Position numbers and translations under genes: made by a program. A stretch of 34,038 nucleotides of DNA from an uncultured Ignavibacteria bacterium (GTDB taxonomy: Bacteria > Bacteroidota > Ignavibacteria > Kapaibacteriales > Kapaibacteriaceae), in the NCBI GenBank assembly GCA_903939735.1, contig CAJAIA010000021.1, forward strand, positions 1 through 34,038, read 5' to 3'. Numbering within the stretch: the first letter of the stretch is position 1; every line of letters begins with the position of its first letter. Of this stretch, positions 9,520-24,048 are shown piece after piece. The notes under the pieces are model-generated. The model was given only the letters and a program-made list of their open reading frames with translations. It did no database searches and was not told the origin of the DNA.

Positions 9520-9563
9520 GTGATTCTCCACGGAAAAATGTTCAATGAATTGTGAGAAGGCGC

Positions 9564-10088
9564 TTATGCAGCCTTCTTCTTGGCGACCTCTTCAACGAGC
9601 GAAGCAACATCGCGCATGACGGCATTGATGCTACCCACGATACCCGAGATTGGGGCGTGGATGCTGCCGATCATACCAGCGATCATGTCTTCACGTGTTG
9701 GGAGCTCGGAAACCTGCTTGAGTTGCGATGCTTCGAACACCATGCCTTCGACAAACGCCAGCTTGAGCTTTGGCTTTTCGCCCTTCTCAAAAAACTGACG
9801 GATGATCTTAGCAGGTGCTACCGGATCGGAACCACCGAAGATGACTGCTGTTTGACCTGCCAGCTTTGATTCCTCGAATTCGTAGCCACCGACTTCTGCA
9901 AGTGCGCGAAGGATGAGGGTGTTCTTTGCCACCTTCATCGTTACGCCCTTTTGACGGAGTTCGTTGCGAAACGCTTGATCCGTTGCAACCGTCATGCCGG
10001 TGAAATCCACGAAGTAGAGGCTCGAAGCGCCCTGGAGGTGTTCTACCAGGTCAGCAACAACGGCCGTCTTTTGCTCTTTCGTGATCAT
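9564..10088 (-). CDS. rplJ: 50S ribosomal protein L10
   Basis: L10 anchors the L7/L12 dimers to 23S rRNA at the base of the stalk. The 174-residue length fits the family. The N-terminal RNA-binding domain shows [24 protein letters not shown] and a Lys/Asn-rich [12 protein letters not shown]. The C-terminal helix that carries L7/L12 follows and ends in a basic KKKAA tail. The start ATG at 10088 has AGGAT about five bases upstream. The leader before it holds a long conserved-looking hairpin typical of L10 autoregulation. Confidence 0.97.
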
Positions 10089-10109
10089 AAATCCTGTTGA
10101 TTAATGGTT

Positions 10110-10161
10110 CGTGGTCGATTCAACATATCCGAAGACATGTTAGAAGCTTGAATCACCCACG
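10110..10161 (-). promoter_or_regulatory. Candidate L10 leader (ribosomal protein autoregulatory hairpin)
   Basis: In the rplA-rplJ gap the minus strand folds into one long hairpin. The outer helix pairs CGTGG (10157-10161) with CCACG (10110-10114). A tandem G-A/T-G step follows, then GATTC pairs with GAATC. An 8-base one-sided internal loop (10142-10149) comes next, then an 8-bp helix capped by a cUUCGg tetraloop (10130-10133). A basal helix, an asymmetric internal loop and an apical helix just before rplJ match the known L10-leader layout, where a kink-turn binds the L10-L12 complex. I derived the pairing by hand; the family assignment is inference. Confidence 0.65.
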
Positions 10162-10181
10162 GTGCGTAATAGTCGTGTGAA

Positions 10182-10880
10182 TTATTGGTCTGCGCCCATT
10201 GAGTGTTCGTCGACACGAACGCTCGGACCCATTGTTGAGCTGAACGAGATGCTCTTGACGTAACGACCCTTCGACGAAGCTGGCTTAGCACGAAGTACTG
10301 TACCAACGAACATCGCGACGTTCTCCGACAACTTTGCAGCGTCGAATGAGCACTTGCCCACCGATGCATGAATGTTGCCAGCCTTGTCAACGCGGAACTC
10401 GATCTTACCAGCCTTGACTTCTGCAACGGCCTTGGCAACGTCAAACGTTACCGTGCCGCTCTTTGGATTCGGCATCAAACCGCGAGGTCCGAGAACGCGA
10501 CCAAGCTTACCGACTTCACCCATCACGTCTGGAGTAGCGATGATGATGTCGATGTCTGCCCAGCCACCTTGCAACTTCTCAATGTAGTCTGCAAAGCCTG
10601 CGTGATCCGCACCTGCATCGAGTGCTTCCTTGTCCTTTGGCGACTTTGCAATCACCAGAACACGAACACTGCGACCTGTACCGTGCGGGAGTGCAACCGT
10701 ACCACGAACAAGCTGATCAGCCTTGCGCGGATCAACACCGAGGTTCATTGCAACTTCGAACGACTCGTCGAACTTGGCTGTGGCGTTTGTCTTAACGAGC
10801 TCGACAGCCTTCTTGAATTCATAGGTCAGCGCGCGATCAAACGACGCGGCTGCCTTCTTGTAACGCTTCCCTTGTGCCAT
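10182..10880 (-). CDS. rplA: 50S ribosomal protein L1
   Basis: L1 forms the mobile L1 stalk on 23S rRNA that helps release deacylated tRNA, and in many bacteria it also represses its own operon. The 232 residues fit the family. The signature region includes [37 protein letters not shown] and NPKSGTVT. The ATG at 10880 ([10 protein letters not shown]) is chosen because AGGA lies eight bases upstream and the family starts here. An upstream in-frame start at 10934 would add 18 non-conserved residues. It follows rplK by 95 bases. Confidence 0.97.
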
Positions 10881-10975
10881 GGAAGTAGTCCTTGTGTGTT
10901 GTGCGAGCGGCCGTTCAGTGCGAACAGCCTCCAACAGTTGAAAGATGAAGTTCTAGGTAATAGAGCGTGGCGGCC

Positions 10976-11401
10976 TTAGCCATCCACAGTGATGCCCATC
11001 GAGCGCGCCGTACCAGCGATCATGCTGATTGCAGCGTCCTCAGACGAACAGTTGAGATCCTGCATCTTGATCTTGGCGATCTCAGCAAGTTGCGCGCGCG
11101 TTACCTTGCCCACCTTGTCACGCTGTGGAACGGCCGAACCGCTCTCGAGGCCTGTTGCCTTGAGAAGAAGAACTGCGGCAGGTGGCGACTTGATTTCGAA
11201 TGTGAAGCTCTTGTCACTGAAGAATGTGACGAGCACTGGCAGGATCATGCCCGGCTGCTTAGCCGACTTAGCATTGAACTGCTTAACGAATTCCATACCT
11301 GCGAGGCCGCGCTGTCCGAATGCCGGACCGACGGGAGGCGCCATCGTTGCTTCACCTGCTTTGAGCTGAAGCTTGAATGTGCCCATGACCTTCTTTGCCA
11401 T
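10976..11401 (-). CDS. rplK: 50S ribosomal protein L11
   Basis: L11 forms the base of the GTPase-associated centre with 23S rRNA. All 141 residues match the family's usual length. The N-terminal domain shows [20 protein letters not shown] and [16 protein letters not shown]. The C-terminal rRNA-binding domain carries [14 protein letters not shown] and ends with [12 protein letters not shown]. The start ATG at 11401 has AGGA eight bases upstream. It lies 58 bases after nusG, and the gap holds a compact hairpin. Confidence 0.97.
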
Positions 11402-11425
11402 GTAAAAAGTCCTTTCGTGGTCTGC

Positions 11426-11443
11426 GGCGGGTGTTCACCCACC
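11426..11443 (-). promoter_or_regulatory. Hairpin in the rplK leader, possible L1 or L11 control site
   Basis: In the 58-base nusG-rplK gap the minus strand has GGTGGGT and ACCCGCC flanking the loop GAAC, a 7-bp stem with one T-G pair. No T-tract follows, so it is not a terminator. Its place upstream of rplK, where many bacteria keep the L1 autoregulatory site, makes a translational control role possible. The match is positional only. Confidence 0.35.
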
Positions 11444-11459
11444 TCCCACTCTTGATGGA

Positions 11460-12023
11460 TTAATGATTTTCCAGTTCTACTTGACCAAAGTCAAGTTCAA
11501 TCGGCGTCTTGCGACCAAGAATGCCGACCTCGACTTTGAGTTTCTGCTTTTCGACGTTGACTTCCTTGACCGTACCGTTGAAGTTGGCAAACGGACCGTC
11601 GATCACCTTCACAGGATCGCCTTCACGGAACGATGTCTCCACCGTCGTGATGTCCTTGCGCTCCTCAACACGTCCGAGAATGCGATCAACCTCGTCACGC
11701 TGCAGCGCCTGTGGCTCTGTCTTTGTTCCAACAAAGCTCACAATTGACGGCAGCGAGAGAATCACATCCTTCACACGACGATCGAGCACACACTCTACGA
11801 GGATGTACCCTGGGAGGAAGTTCTTCACCTTCGTGCGGCGCTTTCCGTTGCGCACCTCATACACCGTTTCCATCGGGATCACGATGCTTCGAACACGGCT
11901 CTCCAGCCCGAGACGTTGCATCTCGAGTTCGATGGATGCCTTCACCTTGGCCTCGTGGCCAGTGAAGGTTCGAAGGGCGTACCACTTCGGATCGATTGTT
12001 TGTGTCGGCGCTCCGTCAAGCAT
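11460..12023 (-). CDS. nusG: Transcription termination/antitermination factor NusG
   Basis: NusG binds the RNA polymerase clamp, reduces pausing and couples transcription to Rho or the ribosome. The 187 residues carry the N-terminal NGN domain (KWYALRTFTGHEAKVKASIE, KNFLPGYILVEC, and SIVSFVGTK near residue 96). The C-terminal KOW domain follows (EGDPVKVIDGPFANFNGTV). An N-terminal tail of about a dozen residues precedes the NGN fold. The ATG at 12023 has AGGA seven bases upstream. It follows secE by 15 bases. Confidence 0.97.
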   Translation of the reverse strand: MLDGAPTQTIDPKWYALRTFTGHEAKVKASIELEMQRLGLESRVRSIVIPMETVYEVRNGKRRTKVKNFLPGYILVECVLDRRVKDVILSLPSIVSFVGTKTEPQALQRDEVDRILGRVEERKDITTVETSFREGDPVKVIDGPFANFNGTVKEVNVEKQKLKVEVGILGRKTPIELDFGQVELENH

Positions 12024-12038
12024 TGCTGTGTCCTATTC

Positions 12039-12221
12039 TCAGAAGATCAGGCTCATGACTTGCGTCATGCCTTGGTCGATCACGAACACGATGCCGGCGA
12101 TGACCAAACATGTGACCACGACCACAATCGTGCTCTCTTGCAATTGCTCACGTGTCGGCCAGGAGACTTTCTTCATCTCCTTGCTTACGTCCGTGAAAAA
12201 ACCGCGGATTGTTTCAACCAT
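12039..12221 (-). CDS. secE: Preprotein translocase subunit SecE
   Basis: This is the small essential subunit that clamps SecY in the inner-membrane translocon. The 60-residue, single-membrane-span form fits Bacteroidota. It starts MVETIRGFFTDVSKEMKKV, carries the conserved SWPTREQL on an amphipathic helix, and ends with one hydrophobic helix (VVVVTCLVIAGIVFVI). I chose the ATG at 12221 because GGAG lies seven bases upstream. A longer frame from 12338 would read through tRNA-Trp and is not credible. It lies 27 bases after tRNA-Trp and 15 before nusG. Confidence 0.95.
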   Translation of the reverse strand: MVETIRGFFTDVSKEMKKVSWPTREQLQESTIVVVVTCLVIAGIVFVIDQGMTQVMSLIF

Positions 12222-12247
12222 GATGCATCTCCGATGCGTGAAAAGTG

Positions 12248-12320
12248 CACGGGCGGCAGGATTCGAACCCGCGGCCTGCGGTTTTGGAGACCGCTGCTCT
12301 ACCAGCTGAGCTACACCCGT
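12248..12320 (-). tRNA. tRNA-Trp (anticodon CCA)
   Basis: The minus strand folds into a 73-base cloverleaf. The acceptor stem pairs ACGGGTG with CGCCCGT and the discriminator is G. The D-arm has AGCTCAGCTGGTAGAGC, the anticodon loop is CTCCAAA, and the T-arm is GCGGG-TTCGAAT-CCTGC. The 3' CCA is not encoded. It sits directly before secE, the usual place in Bacteroidota. Confidence 0.96.
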
Positions 12321-12371
12321 AAACACGTCGATTGTCAAAAGTCGTCGTCATCTTCGTCGTCGTCAAGGCTG

Positions 12372-12444
12372 AGCTGATGACCGGGATTGAACCGGTGACC
12401 TCCACCTTACCAAGGTGGTGCTCTACCAACTGAGCTACATCAGC
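12372..12444 (-). tRNA. tRNA-Thr (anticodon GGT)
   Basis: This is a 73-base minus-strand cloverleaf. The acceptor pairs GCTGATG with CATCAGC and the discriminator is T. The anticodon stem is CCACC/GGTGG around loop TTGGTAA, and the T-arm is ACCGG-TTCAATC-CCGGT. The CCA end is not encoded. Only 51 bases separate it from tRNA-Trp, the slot where tuf usually lies. Confidence 0.96.
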
Positions 12445-12517
12445 ACGTCATCGTCCGGAGACACCAAAGCCCATCAGCAAACGGCATACGCCGTCCGCGT
12501 CAGGGTCTGACGTCGCG

Positions 12518-12590
12518 AGCGGGAGACGGGACTCGAACCCGCGACCAACAGCTTGGAAGGCTGTGACTCTACCAACTGAGTTACTCCCGC
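12518..12590 (-). tRNA. tRNA-Gly (anticodon TCC)
   Basis: This is a 73-base minus-strand cloverleaf. The acceptor pairs GCGGGAG with CTCCCGC and the discriminator is T. The anticodon stem is ACAGC/GCTGT around loop CTTCCAA, and the T-arm is GCGGG-TTCGAGT-CCCGT. The CCA end is not encoded. It is the second of four co-directional tRNAs. Confidence 0.96.
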
Positions 12591-12617
12591 GAGACCAGCC
12601 GAAACTGACCGCTCGTG

Positions 12618-12699
<82 letters not shown>

Positions 12700-12714
12700 G
12701 TAGACCAGAGCCGA

Positions 12715-12746
12715 CAAAGTTAGCAGGTCGGCGGGGTCATTTCCAA
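12715..12746 (-). promoter_or_regulatory. Bacteroidota-type promoter upstream of tRNA-Tyr
   Basis: The minus strand has TTG (12744-12746), a 21-base spacer, and TAACTTTG (12715-12722). This matches the Bacteroidota -33 TTG and -7 TAnnTTTG elements at about the usual spacing. The tRNA 5' end lies only 15 bases past the -7 box, leaving a very short leader. The -33 element sits just upstream (promoter sense) of the -7 box, beside the carA stop codon at 12748. Confidence 0.7.
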
Positions 12747-12747
12747 A

Positions 12748-13875
12748 TCAGGCCATCATTGCCATGAATTGGTCGAAGAGGTAATCGGAGTCGTGCGGAC
12801 CAGGGCTGGCCTCTGGGTGGTATTGCACGGCGAAGGCGGGTACGTCCGTGAGAGCAATCCCGGCACAGGTGTCGTCGTTAAGATTAACGTGCGTCATCTG
12901 GGCATTTGCAGGCAGCGTTGCAGGGTCGACAGCAAATCCGTGATTCTGCGATGTAATCTCGATGCTGCCGGTCTGGAGGTTCTTGACGGGGTGATTGGCG
13001 CCGCGGTGACCGAATTTGAGCTTGTAGGTGGATGCTCCAACGGCCAGCGACAGAATCTGATGTCCGAGACAGATGCCAAACAGGGGGCGAACACCGAGGA
13101 GATCCTTGACGGTCTGAATGCCTATGGTAACGGCCGCAGGGTCGCCTGGACCGTTGCTGAGGAAAACGCCATCAGGGTTGAGCGCGAGGATGTCGGCGGC
13201 GGAAGTCGTTGCAGGCACTACAGTTACGTCGCACCCATGGTGGGCAAGGCGACGTAGAATGTTGCGCTTGACGCCGTAGTCGATGGCAACCACGCGTTTG
13301 CGAGCCCCCTGACCGCGGGTTTCCGGACGATAATCCCATTGATTCTGCTCTTCAGCTTGCCATGCGTAAGGGGCTTGCGTTGTGACGAGCGGCGTGAGGT
13401 CGAGTCCGTTCATCGATGGAATTGCCCGCGCGCGCTCGACGAGTTCACCGTGGTCGAGTCCTTCTCCGTGCGCGATCACGCAGCGCATTGCCCCCTGCGT
13501 GCGTAGGATGCGCACGATCATGCGGGTGTCGACGCCTTCGATACCAGCGGTGCCGTTTTGTTCGAGATAGCTCTGTAGCGAGGCGTGGGAGCGGAAGTTG
13601 GAGACGATCGGTGAGAGTTCGTGCACGACCAAGCCGGAAGCCTGGATGCGGTCTGATTCTGCATCGTCTGGATTTACGCCGTAATTACCGATGTGCGGGT
13701 AGGTAAACGTTACCACCTGGCCCGTGTACGAGGGGTCGGTGAGCACTTCCTGATAGCCCGTCATGGCCGTGTTAAACACGAGCTCGCCGGTACATTCGGC
13801 CCCGATAGCACCAATGGCATCCCCCTCGATTGTCGTTCCATTTTCGAGAGCGAGTACCGCTGTCATGCGTGCCAT
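12748..13875 (-). CDS. carA: Carbamoyl-phosphate synthase small (glutamine amidotransferase) subunit
   Basis: CarA hydrolyses glutamine and passes ammonia to CarB for carbamoyl phosphate, used for pyrimidines and arginine. The 375-residue length fits. The N-terminal domain shows [20 protein letters not shown]. The C-terminal class I amidotransferase domain has the nucleophile Cys269 in GICLGHQ, and His353 and Glu355 in YHPEAS complete the triad. The ATG at 13875 has AGGA five bases upstream; a second ATG three codons in (13866) is less well spaced. carB is not in the window. The gene lies divergent from the HNH gene and about 50 bases upstream of the tRNA cluster. Confidence 0.97.
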
Positions 13876-13894
13876 GGGGTTCCTGAGATTACGG

Positions 13895-14527
13895 GTGCGA
13901 AATACGTGTGCGAAAATACCGCTCTCCTGCTATTTTCCACGCAGGAGAACTGCCTTCAACATTACATCAGCATTACAGCACCACGATTTTGATGGACTCA
14001 ACGAGCCCGGGAAATCGTTTTCGCTGAACGCAAAGGTCCTGATTCTCAACCAGTCGTACGAGCCTATCAGCATCTGCACTACAAAGAAAGCGCTCCTGCT
14101 CCTCTTGCTGATGAAGGCCGACATCGTCGAAGAACGTAGCAACGCTTCGATCCGCTCCGTCCGCGGACGCTATCCATTCCCATCAGTGATTCGCCTCTCG
14201 GCCTACCTGCGAGTACCGTTCAAGAAGATCGAACTCTCACGCAAAAACATCCTGCGTCGCGATGGTATGCGATGCAACTATTGCGGCACAACGCATTCCC
14301 CTCTCACAGTCGACCACATCATCCCCCGCTCTCGTGGTGGTAACGACACATGGGAGAATCTTACTACGGCGTGCGTGAAGTGCAACAACAGAAAAGGTAA
14401 TCGCACACCAGACGAAGCGAACATGCGCTTGCAGACTCCGCCCAAGAAGCCGCACCACGTGCTCTTCCTGAAGCACTACCTAGGCAAGGTCGACGAAGCC
14501 TGGCGTCCGTATTTGTTTATGGATTGA
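13895..14527 (+). CDS. HNH endonuclease
   Basis: This is a stand-alone HNH-fold protein of a family common in Bacteroidota and Cyanobacteria; the cellular role is not settled. The core starts with [14 protein letters not shown] CxxC pair (first Cys codon at 14273), the HNH motif [10 protein letters not shown] (from 14312) and a second CxxC (14372-14383) form the zinc-ribbon HNH fold. The C-terminus [17 protein letters not shown] is typical. The start is uncertain: the in-frame choices are GTG at 13895 or ATG at 13874, both without a Shine-Dalgarno site and giving a long non-conserved N-terminus. An ATG at 13992 is one frame off. The stop abuts that of the convergent protease gene, and its last 93 bases recur at 19464-19556. 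Confidence 0.85.
13923..13948. repeat. Inverted repeat between carA and the HNH gene
   Basis: TCTCCTGC (923-930) and its exact complement GCAGGAGA (941-948) flank ten bases in the divergent upstream region. No T-tract follows on either strand, so it is not a terminator. It could be an operator or a hairpin in the carA leader. If the HNH gene starts at GTG 13895 it would lie inside that coding frame. Confidence 0.5.
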
Positions 14528-14541
14528 TCAGCGGATGACAA
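14435..14541 (+). repeat. Direct repeat, left copy: 3' end of the HNH gene plus end of the convergent gene
   Basis: These 107 bases cover the last 31 codons of the HNH gene (including the stop) and the last 14 bases of the convergent protease gene. The copy at 19464-19570 differs at nine positions in eight codons. Only two codons change an amino acid (Lys to Arg and Ala to Thr). The final 44 bases are identical. Confidence 0.9.
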
Positions 14542-17500
14542 GAAACGTTGCTGATGCGATGCCGTATTCTCCGATGACGGTGACGACGTAAACGCCGGTG
14601 TGCAGCCAGTCGGTCTGCCACGAATCGATTTGTAGAACCTCACCGCTTGAGAAGGACGGGATATCATCACGCATAAGCCGCAGCGTTCCTCGGATATCAT
14701 ACACGCGAAGCTGCCGAATGGCTCCAAGACCCATGCCCCATTCAACACGAATGATATCGGTGCTCGGGTTCGGCGATACAGATACGCTCATCGCACCGCG
14801 CTCAGCCGGTTCGAGAGTTCCGATGCTCGCCATACTTGCCGTCTCACATGTCGCACCTGTGGCCCGGAGCCGGAGTGCTACCATTGCAGCAGGGCCCAGG
14901 CCCTGCACAATGCGAGTACTGTCTTCGCCTGCGAACTCCACGGTGAATGGCGCTGATGTCGAGCCGGCACTTAGTGCTCCGCGAATCTTCCACATTGTCA
15001 TGTCTGCCGAGCGCAGAGGTTCGGAAAACGCTAGTCCGGATGCAAGCGGCAGTTGTACAATTACACTGTCGTGCACCGGATGCTTCACCATCAGCACGCC
15101 CTGCACCGGTGTGATAGCATCACGACTGTTTACAACGTCGAGGCGCATGTCCACAACGTCGTCACGCTCGTGCACTGTGGAAACGCGTGTTGTCAGCGAG
15201 CCACTGCCTACGCGCAGTGCAACTACATGGGTATCTGCTCTCATTGGCGTCGCCATAGGATCATGAAAAGCGACAACGAGATTGCGCTGCGATGCAATTC
15301 CTGCCTGCACAGGCAGGCGCAGCAAAGGCACCTCTACCGTTGATCGTGCAGGGACGGAAATCGATCCCGCTAGTCCTCGCAATGCCTGCTGTCCGCTGAT
15401 GTCAGAGAGCAGATTCCACCGCAGGGTTACATCGCGGTTCTCAAGGTTGGTGACTGTTGCCACGGCTGTTACCGTGTCGCCCACACAGGGCTCGAGCGGG
15501 TATGCGTGGAGATCGATGGTCGTGTGCGCCGCGGTGAGCTCGACATCATCGAAGCAGATTCCCGTGAGCGCTCCCTGACCATACTGCGGATCCGCTTCGA
15601 AGCAGTTCGTCGAGGAAATGTCCACCTCGTACCACCCATCCCTGGGCACCGAAAACGGACTGGTCCAGAGCGGCACCCACGAGTTGACCACCGGCAGCAC
15701 CAGGACTGTATCAAGCACTGTGCCCCCGCGCGCACTGCAGTCGCGCACTTCGCACAGTGCGCTGTCGGCTATCCGCACCAGGAGTCCCGCGTTTCTCGTG
15801 TACTGGTGCGGCGAGTGCACGTACGACCAGAGGGCGACGCGGCTCGGCACAGCTGCCGTGAGATACACTCTCTGTTTGATGCCCTCATGGTAGTCGATCT
15901 TTCCTCCTGTTTTGCCGGAGGTGATCGTACCCACATAGCTTCTGTTGCCTGGGTCGAACTCGAAGCCGCGCGGATAGGGAAATCTGTCGATCATGAGAGG
16001 CGTGATCCGACCCGGGGATTCCCGATCAGACTCTCGATCGAGTGTATCTGCCGCTTCGACTCTAGCGAGATCCGCAGACCCGGCGGCACACCTCCAGTTG
16101 GCTACGTTGGTCGGTAGTCCGCATTCAAACGAGTCAACGAATATCTGCCCGCTTCGCGAAGCAACCTCAAACCCGCCATTACAGATGGTGTTCGGCGGGC
16201 AGGGCAGATCTGCGATATCATACCGCAACCGATCGCCAAGCTGCACAACGCAGGTCACCGCCGAGGTGCGCCCTGCGCTGTCGCGCACAGTGATCCTCAT
16301 CGTCACCCGCGCGCCCGCTACGGCAGAACTCGAGACAACCACACTACTGTCATCGATGGCGATACTATGCTGCGACCTGCCCTCGATCACATCGGCACAG
16401 ACCACAACAAGGGGTCCTGACGTATCAAAACTCAGCGCACGTATCGGCAACCGATACCGTCCGGTGCCGTCCGCGTTTGCGCGCACGTCACGCATACTCG
16501 CAACAGCGCCTCTCGTGAGCGGACTTCGGATATCAAGGCGCACATTCCTCCTTGATCCAAACATTCCGTAGCCCTGCATTACCTGATACCCCAACGCACG
16601 CAGTGCCAGCACATCGAGGCGGTAAAGTTGCCTCTTGGTTTCTCCAAAGCCAATCGACGTCGACATCAGGCTAATCTCCGACGAGCTGCTATGCAGGTGA
16701 CTTAGGTCAACGGCACAACGTGTGCGCTCATCATCAGCCACAAGCTCAAACCACTGGCCTGCAGCTGCACTATCGACCAACTGTACTCGCGACGCGCCCG
16801 TGGTAAGTGACCGGAGATCAACTTCTAAGCCGCCGCATGTAGGCGCCAGAAACGGCTCCTGCTGGCGCACCTGCAGCAGACCATCCCAGCGGCTGGCATA
16901 CGGAACTCGATGCCGGGTTCCTACGTCACGGCACTCGAGTCCGGCAATCGACGCAACACCGAGCACGTGCACCAGTTCGTGCAGAACCACCGAATACAGA
17001 TCGATAGCGTTTGATGGGCAGCCATCGAGTTCTGCGCCAAAGGGCTTGGCCGTGTTCACTACAATGTAGCCGTGCGGTGCATCTCTCGCCAACAGGCGCT
17101 CGCTGGGCAGGAGGCGCCGGCGCAGTATCTGCAATGGTGCGACATCGACCATGGCATCCCGCTCGTATTCGGATGCAACGAACACTGGCTCAGCCCAACC
17201 GGCAGCTTCTTCATCAACGAGGCGTCGCCCCTCGATGTCGATCCGGCACAACACCGTATCAGGCATACTCTCGTTGAACCTGTAAAGGCCAAAGGTCGAT
17301 GTCATATCAACAAAGACCTCTTCGAGCACCTCGCGTCTGCGTTCACCGAGCGTAATCGTTCCCCATGGCTCGGTGCTCGAGAAGAACCCGTCGGTATCAC
17401 GGATGCGCAGCCGGAATGCTCCGGCCGTTACAAGGTATTCCCGCGCGAACTGTACAGATGCCTCCGCCTTTGCACTCTTCAGTGAACCTATCGGACGCAC

Positions 17501-17653
17501 ACAGCCAGCACCACCTATGTGCTGCTCGCCAGCGACGCTTGTGGTAGCACATAACAACAGCAGCAATGCCGAGATCACACCGGCAACGCGTGCCGGTGTG
17601 ATGCTCATGCATTGGTGTGAAATCGTGCTTACATCATTCACGTGAACAGGCAT
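14528..17653 (-). CDS. T9SS-exported metzincin-like (leishmanolysin-type) metalloprotease
   Basis: This is a 1041-residue secreted protein. A hydrophobic signal (VISALLLLLCATTSVAG) follows a longish N-terminus; an internal ATG at 17608 would give a more usual signal peptide. The protease motif HELVHVLG has His225, Glu226 and His229. It lacks the immediate third ligand of GxxH/D metzincins. Instead His319 or His321 lies shortly before a Met-turn, SLMST, at Met330, as in M8 leishmanolysin relatives. Ig-like or PKD-like and Cys-containing beta domains follow (about 380-930). The end is a T9SS type A sorting domain (SVSPNPSTDIIRVEWG to TFLVIR). The ATG overlaps the TAA of the upstream SprB-repeat gene (TAATG). 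Activity and substrate are unknown. Confidence 0.82.
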   Translation of the reverse strand: MPVHVNDVSTISHQCMSITPARVAGVISALLLLLCATTSVAGEQHIGGAGCVRPIGSLKSAKAEASVQFAREYLVTAGAFRLRIRDTDGFFSSTEPWGTITLGERRREVLEEVFVDMTSTFGLYRFNESMPDTVLCRIDIEGRRLVDEEAAGWAEPVFVASEYERDAMVDVAPLQILRRRLLPSERLLARDAPHGYIVVNTAKPFGAELDGCPSNAIDLYSVVLHELVHVLGVASIAGLECRDVGTRHRVPYASRWDGLLQVRQQEPFLAPTCGGLEVDLRSLTTGASRVQLVDSAAAGQWFELVADDERTRCAVDLSHLHSSSSEISLMSTSIGFGETKRQLYRLDVLALRALGYQVMQGYGMFGSRRNVRLDIRSPLTRGAVASMRDVRANADGTGRYRLPIRALSFDTSGPLVVVCADVIEGRSQHSIAIDDSSVVVSSSAVAGARVTMRITVRDSAGRTSAVTCVVQLGDRLRYDIADLPCPPNTICNGGFEVASRSGQIFVDSFECGLPTNVANWRCAAGSADLARVEAADTLDRESDRESPGRITPLMIDRFPYPRGFEFDPGNRSYVGTITSGKTGGKIDYHEGIKQRVYLTAAVPSRVALWSYVHSPHQYTRNAGLLVRIADSALCEVRDCSARGGTVLDTVLVLPVVNSWVPLWTSPFSVPRDGWYEVDISSTNCFEADPQYGQGALTGICFDDVELTAAHTTIDLHAYPLEPCVGDTVTAVATVTNLENRDVTLRWNLLSDISGQQALRGLAGSISVPARSTVEVPLLRLPVQAGIASQRNLVVAFHDPMATPMRADTHVVALRVGSGSLTTRVSTVHERDDVVDMRLDVVNSRDAITPVQGVLMVKHPVHDSVIVQLPLASGLAFSEPLRSADMTMWKIRGALSAGSTSAPFTVEFAGEDSTRIVQGLGPAAMVALRLRATGATCETASMASIGTLEPAERGAMSVSVSPNPSTDIIRVEWGMGLGAIRQLRVYDIRGTLRLMRDDIPSFSSGEVLQIDSWQTDWLHTGVYVVTVIGEYGIASATFLVIR

Positions 17654-19326
17654 TACAGTTTTACAATCAACAGGAGGTCTTCCTGTTCTTCACCATCAAG
17701 TACAAGATTGAGATAGTACGTGCCGGAACTCAACCCCGGAAATGCCAGCGTCTCAGTGTGCGTACCAGCGGACCTCGGTCCAATGTACTGTTCCGCTGCC
17801 GGCTGGAAGCCCCCGTCGAATAGACGGAACGCAACATTGTGCGCGTCTTCGATGTTGAACTCGACACTCACACTTCCGTTAAACGGATTGGGCGAAATGC
17901 CGATAATCCTAGATGCTGTGCACTTAATCTCGATCGACTGTGATACTCTACAGCCATTCGCATCGACAATCTCCGCGGTGTATATCCCTGGTGCGGGGCC
18001 TTCACATACGAGATCGGCGCAGTTACTCGGCGACAACCACGTGATGGCGTACGGTGGCGTGCCACCTTCGATGACGATCGTAGCTCTTCCGCGGCAATCA
18101 TTCTGTGCATTCCGAAAGTTCTTCGACATGAACGAAAACTCAAGTGGCTGCACGGCAGCGATCACCACGGTCTGTTGCCAGGAACACCCATCCTCGTCGG
18201 TAACCGTCACCGTGTAGGTACCAGGCGCGAGATTATCAGCAACCGCACTGTTGCTGACCGAAGGGCTCCATGTGTAGGTGAGCTCTCCCTTTCCACTTGG
18301 GTTGACAACCTCGATTCGGCCGGTGTTCGGTCCTGCGCAGCCCGACTGCCGAACCGCCACAGAGGCACTCACCGCGTTGCGCTGCCGTATAACAAACGGA
18401 ATCGTCTTTGAACATCCCGTGGCAACATCCGTGACGGTGACCGAATATGAACCGGGAGGCATCGAATTCCATGCACTGGCATTGCCGCTAGGTCCGCCCG
18501 GACTCCACGTGATGGTGTAGTTGGTGGTTCCTGTGATGCTGGAGATCGACGCGCTGCCGCTGCCGGTGCCGCTGCACGGTGTGTCCTCTTTCACAAGCGT
18601 GAAATCCACCGGTCCACCCTGCCCGGCAATCGTAAACTCACTGTACACCACGCAGCCACGGCTATCGACAACCTTGACACGGTAGCGACTGTTGACTAAC
18701 CCGGTGGAGTTTGCGCCCTGCTGTGTGCCTTTCCCAAGAAGTTCTGCGTCACGCCAGATCCCCTGCGCCTCATCCCACCACTCAAGAACAAAGCTATTGC
18801 CGCCATTACCACCGTCTGGTGTTGTCACAGCAGTGCCACTGCCAAGGCAGTTGCCGTTCTGTACTTGGGTTGTTGCGGAGAGGTACTTGTCAGGCCCCAG
18901 TACGACGACAGTTACGGTGCCGATGAGGCCCCATAATCGAGACCCATCATTCAGCAGCATGTTCGACCGATACATCGAGAAAGAGTATGTACCAGCACAA
19001 AGACCGGTCAAGTCATGATGTATGGTGTTCGGTCCTCCCATCAGGATCGGAACCTCATACAGCACGTTGCTGAAGCTGCCTGCAGAAAACCGATAGATTC
19101 CGCCTACTTGGCAGCCACTGATCGTCAGCCTTACCTCACCATCACAGTCGCACCATGCTTCCTTCACTACCGTGGCACTTGCCGTAACGTTCTGCGCGTG
19201 AGCCAACACGTTGATTCCAACCGACATGACACTACAGAGGAACACTAGTCGGGTGAGCCCCCCCGCCCCGCCATTCCTAAAGCCTCGCCGCAATGCATGC
19301 ATGAACACACGAATTCCGTAGATCAT
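17653..19326 (-). CDS. T9SS-exported SprB-repeat protein
   Basis: This 557-residue surface or secreted protein has a basic N-terminus, a hydrophobic signal (LVFLCSVMSVGINVLA) and a likely cleavage after AHA. Five repeats of about 70 residues follow, each with a Cys near the start, a central YTITW/YTWSP strand, a turn like PGSYSVTVTD, and a closing GC. This is the SprB/PKD-like pattern of gliding adhesins and related surface proteins. The last 80 or so residues are a T9SS type A sorting domain (GISPNPFNGSVSVEF to LLLIVKL). I chose the ATG at 19326 because GGAG lies six bases upstream; a TTG at 19353 is weaker. It is translationally linked to the protease gene. An adhesin or binding role is inference. 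Confidence 0.82.
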   Translation of the reverse strand: MIYGIRVFMHALRRGFRNGGAGGLTRLVFLCSVMSVGINVLAHAQNVTASATVVKEAWCDCDGEVRLTISGCQVGGIYRFSAGSFSNVLYEVPILMGGPNTIHHDLTGLCAGTYSFSMYRSNMLLNDGSRLWGLIGTVTVVVLGPDKYLSATTQVQNGNCLGSGTAVTTPDGGNGGNSFVLEWWDEAQGIWRDAELLGKGTQQGANSTGLVNSRYRVKVVDSRGCVVYSEFTIAGQGGPVDFTLVKEDTPCSGTGSGSASISSITGTTNYTITWSPGGPSGNASAWNSMPPGSYSVTVTDVATGCSKTIPFVIRQRNAVSASVAVRQSGCAGPNTGRIEVVNPSGKGELTYTWSPSVSNSAVADNLAPGTYTVTVTDEDGCSWQQTVVIAAVQPLEFSFMSKNFRNAQNDCRGRATIVIEGGTPPYAITWLSPSNCADLVCEGPAPGIYTAEIVDANGCRVSQSIEIKCTASRIIGISPNPFNGSVSVEFNIEDAHNVAFRLFDGGFQPAAEQYIGPRSAGTHTETLAFPGLSSGTYYLNLVLDGEEQEDLLLIVKL

Positions 19327-19415
19327 AACCACTCCGAAAAAAATAAAACACAACGCGAACGAAACATGCCGCTCGCCTTTATCATGACATCGTTATCAAC
19401 ACCCCTACCGTTTAC

Positions 19416-19446
19416 CGAACATACACCAATTCACACGGCAACACAA
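19416..19446 (-). promoter_or_regulatory. Possible promoter of the SprB-repeat/protease pair
   Basis: The minus strand has TTG (19444-19446), a 20-base spacer and TATGTTCG (19416-19423), one mismatch from TAnnTTTG. It lies about 90 bases upstream of the start codon at 19326, between the HNH remnant and the gene. The box is imperfect, so the call is tentative. Confidence 0.35.
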
Positions 19447-19463
19447 TACGTCACTACTACGTA

Positions 19464-19556
19464 ACCCCGCCTCGGAAGCCGCACCACGTGCTGTTCTTGA
19501 AGCACTACCTCGGCAAGGTCGACGAGACCTGGCGTCCGTATTTGTTTATGGATTGA
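19464..19556 (+). pseudogene. Remnant of an HNH endonuclease gene (last 31 codons)
   Basis: This stretch encodes the C-terminal tail of the HNH family, from [13 protein letters not shown] to WRPYLFMD and a TGA stop. Nothing upstream encodes the rest and there is no start codon. Compared with the intact gene's end, substitutions are mostly synonymous, as expected if this allele was under selection until recently. The stop abuts the stop of the convergent glycosidase-like gene, just as the intact HNH gene abuts the protease gene. Confidence 0.88.
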
Positions 19557-19570
19557 TCAGCGGATGACAA
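19464..19570 (+). repeat. Direct repeat, right copy
   Basis: This is the right-hand partner of 14435-14541: 107 bases with nine differences, the last 44 bases identical. Together the copies bracket the SprB-repeat and protease genes. They include the codons VIR and stop shared by the two convergent T9SS genes. Confidence 0.9.
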
Positions 19571-22481
19571 CCGCTGTGCGTGTTGCAATTGAGGCGTCGC
19601 GTAGATGCGCACGCACGATGTAGACCCCTGACGCGAGATCTTCAATGCTGACCGATAACACGTCAGGCATAACTGTGATGCGTTCGCGAACGACGGAACC
19701 GTTTATGTCAAGCACGTCAATCGCAACAACCTGCTCACTCGCACCGATGTGAAGCTGTCCATCCGTTGATGGTTGTGGCGCAATGCGGAGCGACGCACCA
19801 ACAATGGCGTCGTTTACGCTCGTCGTTGCACGCGAGAATTCGAGTCGATACCACGGTGTCTGCGCAACGTTTGGCTGCACACTGAACGTGAAGCGTCCGC
19901 CGCTGCGTGGCTCAACAATGGTAGCTGCGCCTTGTGCAACACCCGATGTATTGAGCGGTTGAACTTTGAGTGTGTCGAATAATGGCGCAGTGATACTCAT
20001 GCGCATTCCGACACCTTCCATCAAGAGTGGTGCTTTGCCCCACGTGGTGAACGTGCCATTCCCGTTGGACTCGTCGAATACGGTGCCGGTGTTCAATGCG
20101 CGCGTGCTGACAACAAGCAGGCTACGTGGCGAGGTGGTGATGGGCTCACTGGTCAAGGATGCAACACCAACAACGGGAGGGCTTCCGGCGGTGGTTTGCT
20201 CGATGATCATCGACGGCAATGTCGCGATCCGTCCGACGCCCCCTCCACCAACCATTACAACACGCGGCGACACGATGCGGAACGTTGCGTTTGCTGCATT
20301 CCAATACACTTGCTCATTCTCTGCATCAAGCGCCGATACGTCAACTTGATCACTGAGCGCTGAGATGTCTCGCTGTGGAAGTACCGACTCGGTAGTTGCG
20401 AACGGAAGGTTCATTGCCGTGCGACGGAACAACGGAATACGTCCGTCAGTGCCGATCGACAGTGAAAATGCATTCGTGACATGCAACGATGGTTGATCGA
20501 TCACTTCACGCGTGTTGTCGATGAGGAGTTCCTTCACTGTTGGCGCTACAGCGCCTGTACGAATAAGCGCACTCGCGATGGGAAGCAGCGCGAGAATCTG
20601 CGGCTTGTCGTAGATGTGCCAGTATGAGTTTGAATCGATTTTGTCTGATCCAGCAACCGCATAGTCTGACCATGACGAGAAGAAGACGCCATCCCAATCT
20701 TGCACACCAGCATACGCTGGGAACAGCATTGCAAGGTCGGTTGCATACGGACGTGGGTGCGCGATTGAGGTATGGTGCATCACGAAGGCCTTGCCCTTCG
20801 GACGCACCTGGGCCGCTGCGTAGACTGTACCGCCGTAGGCTTCATTGAGCATGGACGCCGGAGTGTTCCGCCAATCACTCGCACCAAAGACGTCGTACTG
20901 AGGGGCTGCTGTGAGATCCCAGTAGCTCACCATGTTCCTTGACGGACACAACAACACGTTCGAACGCAGCGAGTCGCGCACGAACGAATGAACGCGCGCA
21001 TAAAATGTCGTAAGCTGCTCATGGTTAAACCGCGAGTTGTCGCGCATGCGCACTGGCGACACGCTTGCGTCACTGACGAGCGAACGTCGGATGTTGCCGG
21101 AGGCAAGACTCTCCCCTAGCGCGAGCCCCGGCATCGCGACTTCACGCATTTGGACATCGTCGACAAAGACATCGCCGCTATCAGCACCCATGAAAATCGA
21201 GAAGTTTGCGGTTGTCTCGTCAGATGCACGCGAGGCAAATGTGAACGTGTACTTCTTCCACTCCGACGTAAGCGTAAATGTTTCGTTGAGACCGAACCAA
21301 TCGTATGGGAACGTCCCATTGTAGACATACACTTGCGCCGTCCGTGAACCACGCTGCTTCGTCGTCTTCGCATAGAACGCCACGCTGTACCGGCCCATGC
21401 GGCGGAGCTGTGTAACGCGCTGATACAACTGTATGCCATAGGAAATGCGTCCCTCGTCGAGCGTACCAATGCGCACACGTGCCGACGAAGTGCCTTCGAC
21501 CTTGTCTGCATCGCTGAGTTGCAGGATTGCCTGCGCACCCTGATTCGTGTTTACAGACAGCTGCCATGCAGAGCTAAATGGGTCCTCAAAGCCAGGATTT
21601 CGGAGCACGTTTTCTGTTGATGGCGGCACAACTCTCCAGGCAGCCTCGAGAGCAGCGTCGCTTGCGTAGCCCTTTGTTCGCAGCCATCCATGCCAGAGCG
21701 AATCCACAAGTGCATAGTGCTGTGAGCCAGTATGTATTGCGTTGGTTCCATTCGGTCGCACGATGTCACCGGAATACAACCAGTATGCCATCAGCGACGC
21801 ATCTTCTGCAGCTACGATGTAGGCCAGCGCTGGGTCGTCCTTGTAGGCTAGTCCCGTATGTGGATTCACGTGCGAGAGCAACAGACGCATGATGCCGCGA
21901 TGTTGCTGCTGCACTACGGGATCAAAGATCAGCGGCATGCGTGATCCCCACCCAAGTGAATCAGGTTGGCGCACGCCATCACCGCTGCGAGGTTGCCAAG
22001 CGCTATGGAACGTGAACACGTAGTAAACGCCATGCTGACGTAACTGATGCAAGAACCAATCGAGCTTCTTCATCTGCGAAGCAGAGAGTCCGTTACCAAG
22101 TGTCGTTGGTCCATCAGCAAGGATCGATCCGCCTGCCCACCATGTAATATCGAACGTTGAGAGATTCACGCACGAGATACCGAGAGCTTGGAACCTTGCG
22201 GCCATCGCAATCGCTTGCGCACTATCAGGCCACAACGCACTCCACTGAAGATTCGTCCCGGCAATGCGCAGACGCGATCCATCAGCAAACCCGAGATGTC
22301 CGTCAGGCGTGAGCACAACACGACCGCGTGCACCAGCTACTTCGCGCGGCGTGGCGATGAGGCCTGTATCGAGCTTGGTGCGATCCGTGATGGCAAATGA
22401 GTACGGCTGCTGAAGCACTTGCGCTGTCGCAACGGTTCCGAACGCTATCATGCACAGGACGACGAGGTAGGCATTCTTCAT
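19557..22481 (-). CDS. T9SS-exported glycosidase-like protein with inserted carbohydrate-binding module
   Basis: This 974-residue protein has a Sec signal (MKNAYLVVLCMIAFGTVATA). A TIM-barrel-like region begins with FADGSRLRIAGTNLQW. A CBM4/9-like jelly-roll (about 290-445, NPGFEDPF to GDVFVDDVQM) interrupts it. Barrel segments then resume (MVSYWDLTAAPQYDVFG, QDWDGVFFSSWS), a beta region follows, and a T9SS type A domain closes the protein (RIAPQPSTDGQLHIG to VVIR). At the position where related GH5-like enzymes have Asn-Glu it shows Ala225-Glu226. Where the second Glu is expected it has VMHHTS (His569-His570), so it may not be catalytic. The ATG lies three bases after the DUF1501 stop. Substrate unknown. 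Confidence 0.75.
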   Translation of the reverse strand: MKNAYLVVLCMIAFGTVATAQVLQQPYSFAITDRTKLDTGLIATPREVAGARGRVVLTPDGHLGFADGSRLRIAGTNLQWSALWPDSAQAIAMAARFQALGISCVNLSTFDITWWAGGSILADGPTTLGNGLSASQMKKLDWFLHQLRQHGVYYVFTFHSAWQPRSGDGVRQPDSLGWGSRMPLIFDPVVQQQHRGIMRLLLSHVNPHTGLAYKDDPALAYIVAAEDASLMAYWLYSGDIVRPNGTNAIHTGSQHYALVDSLWHGWLRTKGYASDAALEAAWRVVPPSTENVLRNPGFEDPFSSAWQLSVNTNQGAQAILQLSDADKVEGTSSARVRIGTLDEGRISYGIQLYQRVTQLRRMGRYSVAFYAKTTKQRGSRTAQVYVYNGTFPYDWFGLNETFTLTSEWKKYTFTFASRASDETTANFSIFMGADSGDVFVDDVQMREVAMPGLALGESLASGNIRRSLVSDASVSPVRMRDNSRFNHEQLTTFYARVHSFVRDSLRSNVLLCPSRNMVSYWDLTAAPQYDVFGASDWRNTPASMLNEAYGGTVYAAAQVRPKGKAFVMHHTSIAHPRPYATDLAMLFPAYAGVQDWDGVFFSSWSDYAVAGSDKIDSNSYWHIYDKPQILALLPIASALIRTGAVAPTVKELLIDNTREVIDQPSLHVTNAFSLSIGTDGRIPLFRRTAMNLPFATTESVLPQRDISALSDQVDVSALDAENEQVYWNAANATFRIVSPRVVMVGGGGVGRIATLPSMIIEQTTAGSPPVVGVASLTSEPITTSPRSLLVVSTRALNTGTVFDESNGNGTFTTWGKAPLLMEGVGMRMSITAPLFDTLKVQPLNTSGVAQGAATIVEPRSGGRFTFSVQPNVAQTPWYRLEFSRATTSVNDAIVGASLRIAPQPSTDGQLHIGASEQVVAIDVLDINGSVVRERITVMPDVLSVSIEDLASGVYIVRAHLRDASIATRTAVVIR

Positions 22482-22484
22482 GGT

Positions 22485-24038
22485 CTATCGTTGGATTTGG
22501 ACGATGGTGTGGGTGACGGCGCGGTTCACCGTGAGCGATACAACGTATGCGCCTGCTGGGATAGCACGCACATCAAGCGTGGCCTCTGATGAGAACACGT
22601 TGAGCTCGGCTCCCAGCAATGTGCGTCCGCGCAGATCTGACAGCGTGACTGATGCATTGGCTCCAACCTCAGTGCGTGCGCGAACAGTGAGCACATCGCT
22701 CGCAGGGTTTGGCGATACACGGATAAAGGCAGATTGTGCTGACGACGAATCTTGGATTGACGTTGGTGTCTTGAAGATCTGCGGCGCGTTGGCCGACATA
22801 TCGCGCAACAGCAACTGCTGCGCGAGGGTTGGCGTTGTGCCGAACCATTGGAGCAACACGCTCGCATAGATGTTGCGGTAGTCGTACTCCATCAGCAGAT
22901 CGCCACGGTCGTCGAGATTCGTCAGATTCGGATTAGCTCCATACACACCACCGTTGACGTTTGCACCGAAGACGAACAACGGTGCAGCAGTGCCGTGATC
23001 TGTACCAACGCTGCCGTTCTCAGCGACTCGACGTCCGAACTCGCTGAACGTCATGCCAGCAATACGCTTGTCGTGACCCTGTTGCTTCATGTCTGTCATG
23101 AACGACGACACAGCATCACCAAGCTCTGCAAGGAGCGATGCGTGTGCGCCACGCGTGCTGTCATCAGATGCTGTTTGATTGGCGTGTGTATCGAAGTTGT
23201 TGTTCGCCCACGAGATTAGATACACACGCGATTGCAATCCACCGCGAATCAGCTGCGACACAACACGGAGCTTAGCGCCGATGTCAGTCGATGGATACGA
23301 GCCCGACGGCGCACCTGCTTTGTCGTTGGCCTGCTTCACAACAGCAGCATAGACATCTGCGCTACGCGCCACGCTACGCATGAACGAGATCTCACGACCT
23401 ACCGGTGTATCCGACTGTGCGCTACTTGGCACTTCATCATTGCCGCCGCCTCCATTGACGAGTCGATAAAACTCATCGGGATCGCGGAAGGTAATCCCCA
23501 TGGGACCTGCTGTGCCGAGCATGCCAAGCGATACCGATGTGCCGATCTGGATTGCAAGTGGGTGCGCTGGAAGTTCCGTTGGATACTGTGGCGCAACAGA
23601 TTGCAAGTAGCGTCCGATCCACCCTGTCGCTCCGAACACATCCGCATCTGTCGCTGTCAACCAGATGTCGGTGCCGCGGAAGTGCGAGCGATCCGGATTC
23701 GGATATGTCACGCCTTGAATCACCGCCAAGTTTCCGGCATCAAACGCGTCGCGGAACCCGCGCAGCGCCGGATGCCATCCTAGCGAGTCGTTGATGCGAA
23801 GGGCTTTTGATTTTGAAATCGCAATCGTTGGCCGACGTTGATAGTAAAGAGGATCGGTGTACGGAATCACCGTATTGAGACCATCATTACCACCCTGCAT
23901 CTGAATGAGGATGAGCACACGATCCTGCTCCTCCAGCAACTGATGCAGAATCGGATCACCGCCAGCGAGTGCACGTACAGTGAACGAATTGATCACTGCA
24001 GGCAGTGCGGCAACGCGAAGGAAAGAACGACGTTTCAT
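22485..24038 (-). CDS. DUF1501 family protein with Tat-like signal and T9SS sorting domain
   Basis: This is a 517-residue protein of the DUF1501 family, distantly related to the alkaline phosphatase/sulfatase fold; the biochemical role is unknown. The N-terminus MKRRSFLRVAALPAV has the twin-arginine pattern with a mild hydrophobic core. Family landmarks are QMQGGNDGLNTVIP, SHFRGTDIW, FDTHANQ, FSEFGRRVAEN and GTDHGTAAP. The last 80 or so residues form a T9SS type A domain starting at RVSPNPASDVLTVRA. It follows the DUF1800 gene by 10 bases and precedes the glycosidase-like gene by three. DUF1501 and DUF1800 genes are commonly paired. Confidence 0.9.
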   Translation of the reverse strand: MKRRSFLRVAALPAVINSFTVRALAGGDPILHQLLEEQDRVLILIQMQGGNDGLNTVIPYTDPLYYQRRPTIAISKSKALRINDSLGWHPALRGFRDAFDAGNLAVIQGVTYPNPDRSHFRGTDIWLTATDADVFGATGWIGRYLQSVAPQYPTELPAHPLAIQIGTSVSLGMLGTAGPMGITFRDPDEFYRLVNGGGGNDEVPSSAQSDTPVGREISFMRSVARSADVYAAVVKQANDKAGAPSGSYPSTDIGAKLRVVSQLIRGGLQSRVYLISWANNNFDTHANQTASDDSTRGAHASLLAELGDAVSSFMTDMKQQGHDKRIAGMTFSEFGRRVAENGSVGTDHGTAAPLFVFGANVNGGVYGANPNLTNLDDRGDLLMEYDYRNIYASVLLQWFGTTPTLAQQLLLRDMSANAPQIFKTPTSIQDSSSAQSAFIRVSPNPASDVLTVRARTEVGANASVTLSDLRGRTLLGAELNVFSSEATLDVRAIPAGAYVVSLTVNRAVTHTIVQIQR

Positions 24039-24048
24039 GGCGCTTCGC

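Follow-up and report, generated by a model that had tools for sequence, protein, structure and literature searches.

How did a protease-like gene and a SprB-repeat gene come to lie between two copies of the end of a conserved gene? The question is raised by the window, the whole 34,038-nucleotide stretch analysed here, from an uncultured Ignavibacteria bacterium (genome G000). A first-pass annotation had noticed that the 3' end of an HNH gene, together with 14 bases of the convergent gene, recurs at 19464-19570. We confirm a direct repeat of 107 bases, of which 98 are identical (9 mismatches, 91.6%). It starts on a codon boundary, at HNH codon 161, and holds the last 30 codons, the stop and the 14 bases. 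Six of the nine substitutions are synonymous, in agreement with their earlier description as mostly so, and the other three fall in two codons, changing K to R and A to T. The identical terminal run counts 43 bases (14499-14541), not the 44 first given. As also noted before, the right copy has no HNH gene body, and both copies meet a minus-strand gene ending in V-I-R-stop at equal offset. Searching the whole genome with the repeat (2,468,427 bases, 45 contigs; E <= 0.001) returns these two places alone (E 1e-50 and 2e-38). The HNH-tail repeat is beyond chance: in about 400 kb of G000 (window included) it is the sole direct repeat found that reaches 50 bases and 80% identity with its copies spaced by more than 300 bases. 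No notable microhomology was seen by eye at the joint 19463/19464.

The genes of the locus

The bracketed segment carries the two genes first described, one protease-like with a HEXXH motif and one with SprB repeats (Table 1). The protease has no Pfam match at 0.001 and scores 34.9 bits against NF038122, under that family's cut-off of 80; the HEXXH motif is present, and H225, E226, H229 and G232 are invariant across five aligned homologues. The SprB protein matches PF13573 (31.6 bits, cut-off 28) and the T9SS C-terminal sorting domain TIGR04183 (33.8 bits, cut-off 23). The CBM protein exceeds the PF02018 cut-off (35.4 bits against 25.9) and falls under both sorting-domain cut-offs (22.7 bits against 27 for PF18962). 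For the protease, no sorting-domain match was found in G000, and the homologue in the congener G001 reaches 25.5 bits against 27. Pfam scans of 19 window genes found neither integrase nor transposase, as the annotation had reported, and no recombinase was found among the window and cargo genes scanned, including the short gene described below, the G004 cargo, the gene upstream of the protease in G413 and two further genes.

The HNH gene is present in 58 of the 60 genomes searched (own included) and in all 23 of the family. Among the 22 other family loci it lies at most 160 bp from carA everywhere but in G011, where the distance is 3.4 kb. Given this constancy, a role as a homing endonuclease was judged unlikely. 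Its start codon is uncertain; an ATG frame opens at 13763.

Table 1. Coordinates of genes, repeat copies and divergent patches at the locus
Feature	Position	Strand	Basis or remark
carA, conserved left neighbour	12748..13875	-	Pfam CPSase_sm_chain + GATase
HNH endonuclease-family conserved core gene	13955..14527	+	PF14279/PF01844
Left repeat copy: HNH 3' end + 14 bases of convergent gene	14435..14541	+	
Metalloprotease-like, probably exported protein, 1041 aa	14528..17653	-	HEXXH
Inserted segment between repeat copies	14542..19463	.	Missing from site in 22 other family genomes
SprB-repeat protein with T9SS sorting domain, 566 aa	17653..19353	-	PF13573, TIGR04183
Right repeat copy: HNH tail without gene body	19464..19570	+	
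Resident convergent CBM_4_9 (carbohydrate-binding) gene, weak T9SS sorting domain	19557..22481	-	PF02018; follows HNH in relatives
Diverged CBM gene 3' end	19571..19982	.	17.7% from G005, sharp end
Second sharply bounded divergent CBM patch	21591..21756	.	30% from G005

The same junction in relatives

In 16 of the 22 other family genomes HNH adjoins CBM directly, and in 5 more one short gene, with no tail copy, separates the two, which makes them neighbours in 21. The remaining genome, G019, has other cargo at the site, with HNH and CBM on two contigs and near contig ends. Compared across species, the junction thus holds nothing, one short gene, the protease-SprB pair or the G019 cargo. The protease-SprB segment is absent from the site in all 22 relatives, which makes the pair a gain here, and none of the 22 has a second HNH tail (E <= 0.001). 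The annotation had proposed aligning sister genomes, and had said that a remnant common to all of them would count against its reading; no relative examined shares the arrangement with the remnant.

Divergence from the sister genome G005 changes abruptly along the locus. HNH differs by 0% over 13792-14070, by 3.8% over 14071-14434 and by 6.5% over its tail, and carA by 6.1%. The right tail differs by 13.1%, the adjoining CBM 3' end (about 410 bases) by 17.7%, and CBM from 19983 to 21590 by 1.0%, with a sharp edge after 19982. The lack of any difference over 13792-14070 makes a recent exchange to the left of the segment probable, and the sharp edges within CBM support recombination with a related lineage. 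Within the tail, positions 14435-14475 of the left copy are identical to G005, and the right copy differs there at 6 sites; the private G005 cluster in the left tail counts 4 sites.

These patterns bear on the earlier proposal that an HNH-protease-SprB segment from a related lineage replaced the resident HNH gene and left its tail behind. Its two-gene gain and its recombination with a related lineage stand. Its polarity is not supported: with synteny kept and a background-level distance from G005, HNH has the look of a resident orthologue, and it is the right tail, with the CBM 3' end after it, that is more distant. To judge from these alignments, a resident HNH gene with an extra imported tail fits better than a replaced HNH gene, the polarity being unsettled with three genomes compared.

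Two further gene ends in the genus

The annotation had also suggested that the HNH 3' end would be a recombination point for swapping surface proteins. We do not find it to be a dedicated one: a methyltransferase gene in G001 and selD in G000 show this architecture as well. In G001, copies of the methyltransferase 3' end bracket a homologue of the protease together with a SprB gene that is truncated (44% identity over 59 residues). The right methyltransferase copy measures 566 bp, of which the final 127 bp match the contig start, and the left tail is interrupted where a contig breaks; where both are readable, the tails are 98-100% alike (2 of 91 and 0 of 127 positions differ). The insert is placed by two contigs that flank the methyltransferase-glycosyltransferase junction of congeners. 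That junction has no protease in the 8 other congeners examined (G009 left out), with a gap of -3 to 294 bp in 7 of them and 897 bp in G004. In G009, considered as a second carrier of the insert, the methyltransferase contig stops at the merged 127-mer and the glycosyltransferase lies beside other genes. In G000 the joint between cargo and tail lies 110 bp upstream of sprB; in G001 it falls within the SprB gene.

At the selD site of G000, two partial selD 3' ends divide three groups of cargo genes. These ends were found by targeted search, outside the 400-kb repeat sample. The cargo genes are missing there in G005, where, as in six other congeners, selD lies within about 100 bases of a TolB-like gene. 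The repeats span about 240-310 bp, and a spacer, S, is confined to the selD array among the DNA examined. Over 236 bases the rightmost copy has 5 differences from G005 and the full gene 8, which places the copy slightly nearer, the opposite of what is seen at HNH. In G004, selD is followed by an M12B-like metallopeptidase of 1028 aa that has a T9SS sorting domain, with no tail copy. Comparison by eye of the starts of the three tails found no convincing common motif. Such scars around other genes of this kind suggest a recurring addition of surface genes in the genus without a recognisable mobile element.

How the gene pair may have been added

We tentatively read the HNH-CBM junction as an integrase-free hotspot for genes of exported proteins, similar to a minimal mobile element, at which insertions can duplicate the end of a flanking gene, Campbell-type integration being the easiest route; we rate this reading as somewhat short of probable. 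The SprB-protease operon would have been added in the G000 lineage by an insertion of this type. The incoming DNA may have been a circle or a tandem of [gene 3' tail + cargo], and a single homologous crossover within the shared tail would integrate tail and cargo. The outcome would be a complete resident gene on the cargo side and a truncated donor-type tail beyond, with cargo and tail joined at an arbitrary point. The adjoining CBM sequence may have been replaced afterwards by homologous exchange with congeners, a process that would also spread the block. The empty site, the two tails, the background distance of the HNH body from G005, the recurrence at two other genes of the genus and the mosaic divergence beside the insert speak for the hotspot reading, and the order predicted from a circular or tandem intermediate matches that observed: cargo then tail in the arrays, and spacer then tail at selD. 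Against Campbell integration, circle, donor and intermediate are all unseen, the diverged CBM end calls for a second exchange beyond a plain crossover, and insertions without a tail occur at the same junctions (the short gene in 5 congeners, and G004 after selD). The G005-like rightmost selD copy also counts against it, as do seven protease loci outside the genus at which the bracketing repeat is missing (the G318 locus is cut by a contig end).

Other routes to the same layout can be envisioned. In one form of the annotation's reading, linear donor DNA with HNH-protease-SprB was held by homology in carA/HNH, and an illegitimate joint formed within the resident HNH gene; the left HNH would then be donor DNA and the right tail resident. 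Such homology-facilitated illegitimate recombination has been described for three transformable species (PMC2884548), and the probable recent exchange over 13792-14070 and the rightmost selD tail are in its favour. We consider it unlikely, since HNH over 14071-14434 is at background distance from G005 while the right tail is more distant, and since the G001 tails are near-identical where about 20% divergence would be expected for a resident and a donor as distant as G001 and G009. Alternatively, [gene tail + cargo] could have been duplicated in tandem after an ordinary insertion, and the second cargo lost by exchange with a cargo-less congener that left the tail. One exchange would then account for both the diverged right tail and the diverged CBM 3' end, and the spacer-tail units at selD are tandem-like. 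This scenario requires two steps and loss of a cargo copy each time, at three loci, and none of the bracketed loci seen has two intact copies of the cargo; we regard it as improbable.

Prophage e14 at icd, where the icd' duplicate is 163 bp (PMC6379469), likewise lies between a complete gene and a displaced 3' end, and the layout could mark decayed site-specific integrative elements that target the 3' ends of conserved genes and bring a substitute end. This too we regard as improbable: scanned cargo genes include no recombinase, the three target genes are unrelated and their repeats differ in length (107, 566 and about 240-310 bp), and the native-like copy joins the HNH gene body, where integration of the e14 type predicts the element's version. 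Finally, the close relatives are metagenome assemblies, and the exact 127-base end common to G001 and G009 contigs is a sign of a merged assembly graph, so an assembly chimera of co-occurring strains or species could be envisioned. We think it very unlikely to explain the locus, as the pattern occurs at two loci of this genome and one in another assembly, and gene order runs on at both sides.

We know of no natural transformation in the window's organism. A minimal mobile element (Saunders and Snyder 2002, defined in PMC3898611) is a region between two conserved genes in which the whole-gene cassettes vary and are taken in through homologous recombination. The junction resembles one in its variable whole-gene cassettes between HNH and CBM and in the lack of mobility genes among those scanned; unlike the element as described there, it has a partial flanking-gene end beyond the cassette. 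Viewed as purely homologous incorporation, the locus shows the sharp CBM divergence edges, but the tail duplication is not predicted by homologous recombination. The hotspots of PMC5635113 are likewise sites of gene turnover flanked by core genes, with recombination at those genes and no recognisable mobile element, but the double homologous recombination of that model alone yields no tail duplication. Homology-facilitated illegitimate recombination (PMC2884548) could leave a tail through one homologous and one illegitimate joint; in its simple form it is at odds with the HNH polarity and the near-identical G001 tails. Prophage e14, in the account cited above, is likewise flanked by a duplicated gene 3' end, but it integrates site-specifically into one gene and brings a substitute end, whereas here the complete HNH gene has a native-like end and the scanned genes include no integrase. 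In pneumococcus, DNA taken up in transformation pairs with a repeat and yields merodiploids (PMC3784515). These are similar in that duplication arises through homology-paired incoming DNA, and different in scale and form, as tandem duplications that run from about 100 to 900 kb rather than a few-gene insert with a gene tail. Our literature search found no publication joining Campbell-type integration, natural transformation, gene acquisition and partial duplication; we do not claim unpublished status beyond its scope.

The truncated flanking-gene end is a scar by which integrase-free acquisitions could be recognised and counted, and, for a lineage that is known here from metagenomes alone, it would tie a definable route of recombination to the turnover of secreted proteins of the T9SS type. 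A bolder idea, which we put forward as speculation and think improbable, is that exported-protein genes of the genus move as integrase-free circular cassettes in which a piece of the 3' end of a conserved gene is an address tag, landing by homology and building arrays such as selD-cargo-tail-cargo-tail. If the tails are address tags, homologous recombination and not mobile elements would shape the surface of this bacterium.

The annotation had proposed comparing GC content and codon usage. The two cargo genes have GC and GC3 values (0.58 and 0.55; 0.62 and 0.61) inside the range of the 12 other window genes tested. Their codon preference scores, -0.01 and -0.06, are under those of all 12 (0.08 to 0.26). 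The low codon preference is mild support for import and does not name a source. Among the 60 genomes (own included), the nearest protease is that of G001, at 37% amino acid identity, and the sole DNA match to the segment besides the tail is 179 bases at 68%, also in G001. The protease has no match in viral contigs. Of 391 genomes from the class, each scored on 2 candidates, 3 (own included) reach E 1e-15. With 5 candidates scored per genome, 30 of the order's 123 genomes match the protease profile, and 9 of the 123 (own included) match its catalytic part, as judged from profile ranges.

Repeated gene end at the HNH-CBM junction

The window is an entire contig (C21, 34,038 bases; the genome is 2.47 Mb in 45 contigs), and it carries a direct repeat of 107 bases that runs from codon 161 of the HNH endonuclease-family gene to its stop and includes 14 bases of a convergent gene. 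A search of the window's own genome returns matches at two places only. The copies differ by nine substitutions, six of them synonymous. The recurring HNH tail reported in the first-pass annotation is real; the copies do end in an identical run, as was also claimed, but its length is 43 bases rather than 44.

HNH is present in all 23 genomes of our family sample, and we compared the locus in the 22 others. In 16 of these, HNH and the CBM gene converge with no gene between them, and the gap is estimated at about -30 to 130 bases. Five congeners (G002, G010, G007, G004 and G009) have a gene of ~240 codons at the junction; by eye it begins like a lipoprotein, and a Pfam scan of the G002 copy gives no match. 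In G019, other genes occupy at least 5.5 kb from HNH to the contig end, including thioredoxin-like and BNR/sortilin-like genes (Pfam), and CBM lies near the end of a different contig. No second HNH tail was found at E <= 0.001 in the 22 genomes. A tree of HNH and its left neighbor, carA, pairs the window's genome (G000) with the sister genome G005 (support 0.997), with G003 next. Because the segment between the tails has no counterpart at this site in relatives, including G005 and G003, it is a gain in the lineage of the window. Aligning the locus in sister genomes had been proposed as a check, and segment plus remnant occur in none of the 22.

We also compared 11 neighboring junctions, with many cells empty where contigs or stretches ended. 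Among those measurable, other gaps above 1 kb occur only at rpoB-carA (3.7 to 4.9 kb in all nine genomes measured, G000 included), at carA-HNH in G011 (3.4 kb, locus L045; here the insertion flanks HNH on its opposite side) and at c212-c289 in G012 (2.1 kb). By HNH protein, the close relatives are metagenome genomes labelled Candidatus Kapaibacterium, Ignavibacteria and Bacteroidetes, and one Melioribacter. The closest (L092) is labelled Melioribacter roseus, which may be wrong, and the next ones carry Kapaibacterium or Ignavibacteria labels.

Similar arrays at methyltransferase and selD genes

In the congener G001, a protease with 37% identity lies on contig C16, which starts with 127 bases of the 3' end of a methyltransferase gene (named by eye from sequence, without a domain scan). 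The protease, a truncated SprB gene, a 566-base copy of the methyltransferase 3' end and the next gene follow. This right copy contains the 127 bases exactly, and the 5' part of the methyltransferase ends contig C83. In eight other congeners (G006, G008, G004, G002, G000, G010, G005 and G003; the comparison leaves out G009 and G007), the methyltransferase adjoins the C16 glycosyltransferase, with no protease between them; the gap is 897 bp in G004 and does not exceed 294 bp in the other seven. Like the HNH repeat, the methyltransferase repeat extends 14 bases beyond the stop, which may be coincidence. C83 (L141) and a contig of another species, G009 (C123, L142), are 79% identical overall and have exactly the same last 127 bases. 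This suggests that the assembly graphs were merged, perhaps because the 3' half of the methyltransferase was transferred recently, and the left copy in G001 is therefore inferred over a break between contigs. Identity of the right copy to G006 is 82%, which equals the G001-G006 level upstream (81.3%; G009-G006, 77.2%) and exceeds the level downstream (71.3%); a tail native to G001 would be compatible with this, and no more than compatible.

We searched selD after seeing a copy of its 5' end in the G001 sample, where it precedes an extra frame and the full gene, the mirror image of a tail scar (a scar being a partial copy of a flanking gene's end beyond inserted cargo). The window's own genome has two selD 3' ends downstream of the full gene (see table). 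The distance from selD to the TolB-like gene is within about 100 bases in G005, G003, G010, G009, G006, G008 and G001, about 0.5 kb in G007 and 3.2 kb in G004; selD has no match in G002. The thioredoxin-like cargo at selD has a homologue among the G019 HNH-site cargo genes, with 29-34% identity over the C-terminal 110-155 residues, and both junctions have therefore been used by one kind of gene. In G004 this junction holds another cargo, a metallopeptidase of M12B-like type that carries a T9SS sorting domain, and no selD tail copy accompanies it.

Features and their locations
Feature	Location	Positions	Description
tRNA-like repeats	window	12250-12589	three direct repeats between nusG and carA (repeat scan)
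Interval A	window	13792-14070	
HNH, interval B	window	14071-14434	
Left tail	window	14435-14541	
Segment	window	14542-19463	protease-like and SprB-repeat genes
Right tail	window	19464-19570	
Low-divergence tract	window	19983-25491	
CBM patch	window	21591-21756	166 bases, sharp bounds, just before carbohydrate-binding domain
Repeated 3' end	L211 (G001:C6)	1-2613	273-base direct repeat (97%) of 3' end of 545-codon frame; contig begins inside first copy
selD 5'-end copy	L212 (G001:C7)	378-2679	158 bases (96%), then 367-codon frame (marginal Peptidase_S9 match), then full selD
selD array 1	L233 (G000:C20), minus strand		full selD
selD array 2	L233		203-codon frame and thioredoxin-like protein (25.9 bits vs 27)
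selD array 3	L233		tail copy 1: internally deleted; 93% over 275 bases, counting a spacer after the stop
selD array 4	L233		BNR/sortilin-like protein; weak sorting domain (16.6 bits vs 27)
selD array 5	L233		spacer, then tail copy 2 (96% over 237 bases); 3' end unlike full gene's
selD array 6	L233		protein with T9SS sorting domain (above cut-off)
selD array 7	L233		TolB-like gene (named by eye)
Metallopeptidase cargo	L238 (G004)	6677-9763	
Run of 13 G or C	L124 (G019:C61)	start	near cargo genes
Run of 13 G or C	L130 (G019:C28)	about 130 bases from end	near cargo genes
Tandem proteases	L120 (G029:C63)	3580-14668	

As a control, we scanned a list of 67 loci (1.12 Mb in total; loci shorter than 5 kb were passed over, and some genomes appear twice) for direct repeats that reach 60 bases and 85% identity and whose copies lie more than 500 bases apart. 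Six loci qualify: the window, the G001 locus, L051, L111, a self-similar array in L153 and a tandem protease array. In a 400-kb sample of G000, only the window pair was found; a 258-kb sample of G001 gave repeats at three loci. Against the pattern, tail copies are absent around the short HNH-CBM gene in the five congeners, around the metallopeptidase after selD in G004 and, outside the genus, at the protease loci of seven genomes, one of which is truncated by the end of its contig. Three arrays thus carry the scar and these insertions lack it, in a small sample partly guided by earlier matches. The repeat in L211 could be either tandem genes or another scar. The G/C runs at or near G019 contig ends might represent phase variation or a point where sequencing stopped.

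Native tail and route of entry

Divergence between G000 and G005 is 6.1% in carA, 0% in interval A and 3.8% in interval B. The left tail differs from G005 by 6.5% (seven sites, four of which form a single G005-private cluster) and the right tail by 13.1%; the 412 CBM bases after the right tail differ by 17.7%, followed by a drop to 1.0%. The first-pass annotation had an incoming HNH replacing the resident one. These values lean the other way: in the simplest reading, HNH would be resident, and the right tail and CBM end would come from another lineage. This polarity is a leaning and is not settled. CBM looks mosaic in any case, with another patch at 30% divergence; G003 is too distant in the CBM region to polarize the change; and DNA exchange between G000 and G005 is probable on either side. 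Right of the segment, the low-divergence tract is 1-2.6% from G005 by gene, one patch excepted, against 6.1% in carA, and is a probable recent exchange tract.

The architecture recurs and is absent from the relatives examined: all three arrays read complete gene, cargo, partial gene end. We infer a donor, a circle and a route of DNA entry as follows. Incoming DNA might have joined gene end and cargo in circular or tandem form, and one crossover within the gene end would yield a complete gene, cargo and a partial end with arbitrary joints. Such entry would explain the observed order and joints: in G000 the joint lies 110 bp upstream of sprB, and in G001 it falls within the SprB gene. Three rival explanations each fit part of these data: homology-facilitated illegitimate recombination, a tandem duplication with later exchange, and site-specific elements that have decayed. 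The gene-tail duplication is similar to the e14/icd arrangement as outlined in an extract of PMC6379469; no integrase was found among the genes scanned here. The HNH-CBM junction also fits the descriptions, in extracts of the respective papers, of a minimal mobile element (PMC3898611) and of hotspots without mobile elements (PMC5635113).

Cargo genes

The upstream cargo gene of the window encodes a SprB-repeat protein and the downstream one a protease-like protein, in which HEXXH..G is invariant across five aligned homologues. A SprB-repeat gene also lies directly upstream of a related protease in G031, G029 and G413 (in G413 the score is 28.5 bits, the cut-off 28), and also in G001, where the SprB gene is truncated. 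The protease-SprB unit is rare, occurring in 3 of 391 class genomes (the window's own included) at E 1e-15. In G029, the protease gene is present in three tandem copies beside one SprB-repeat gene.
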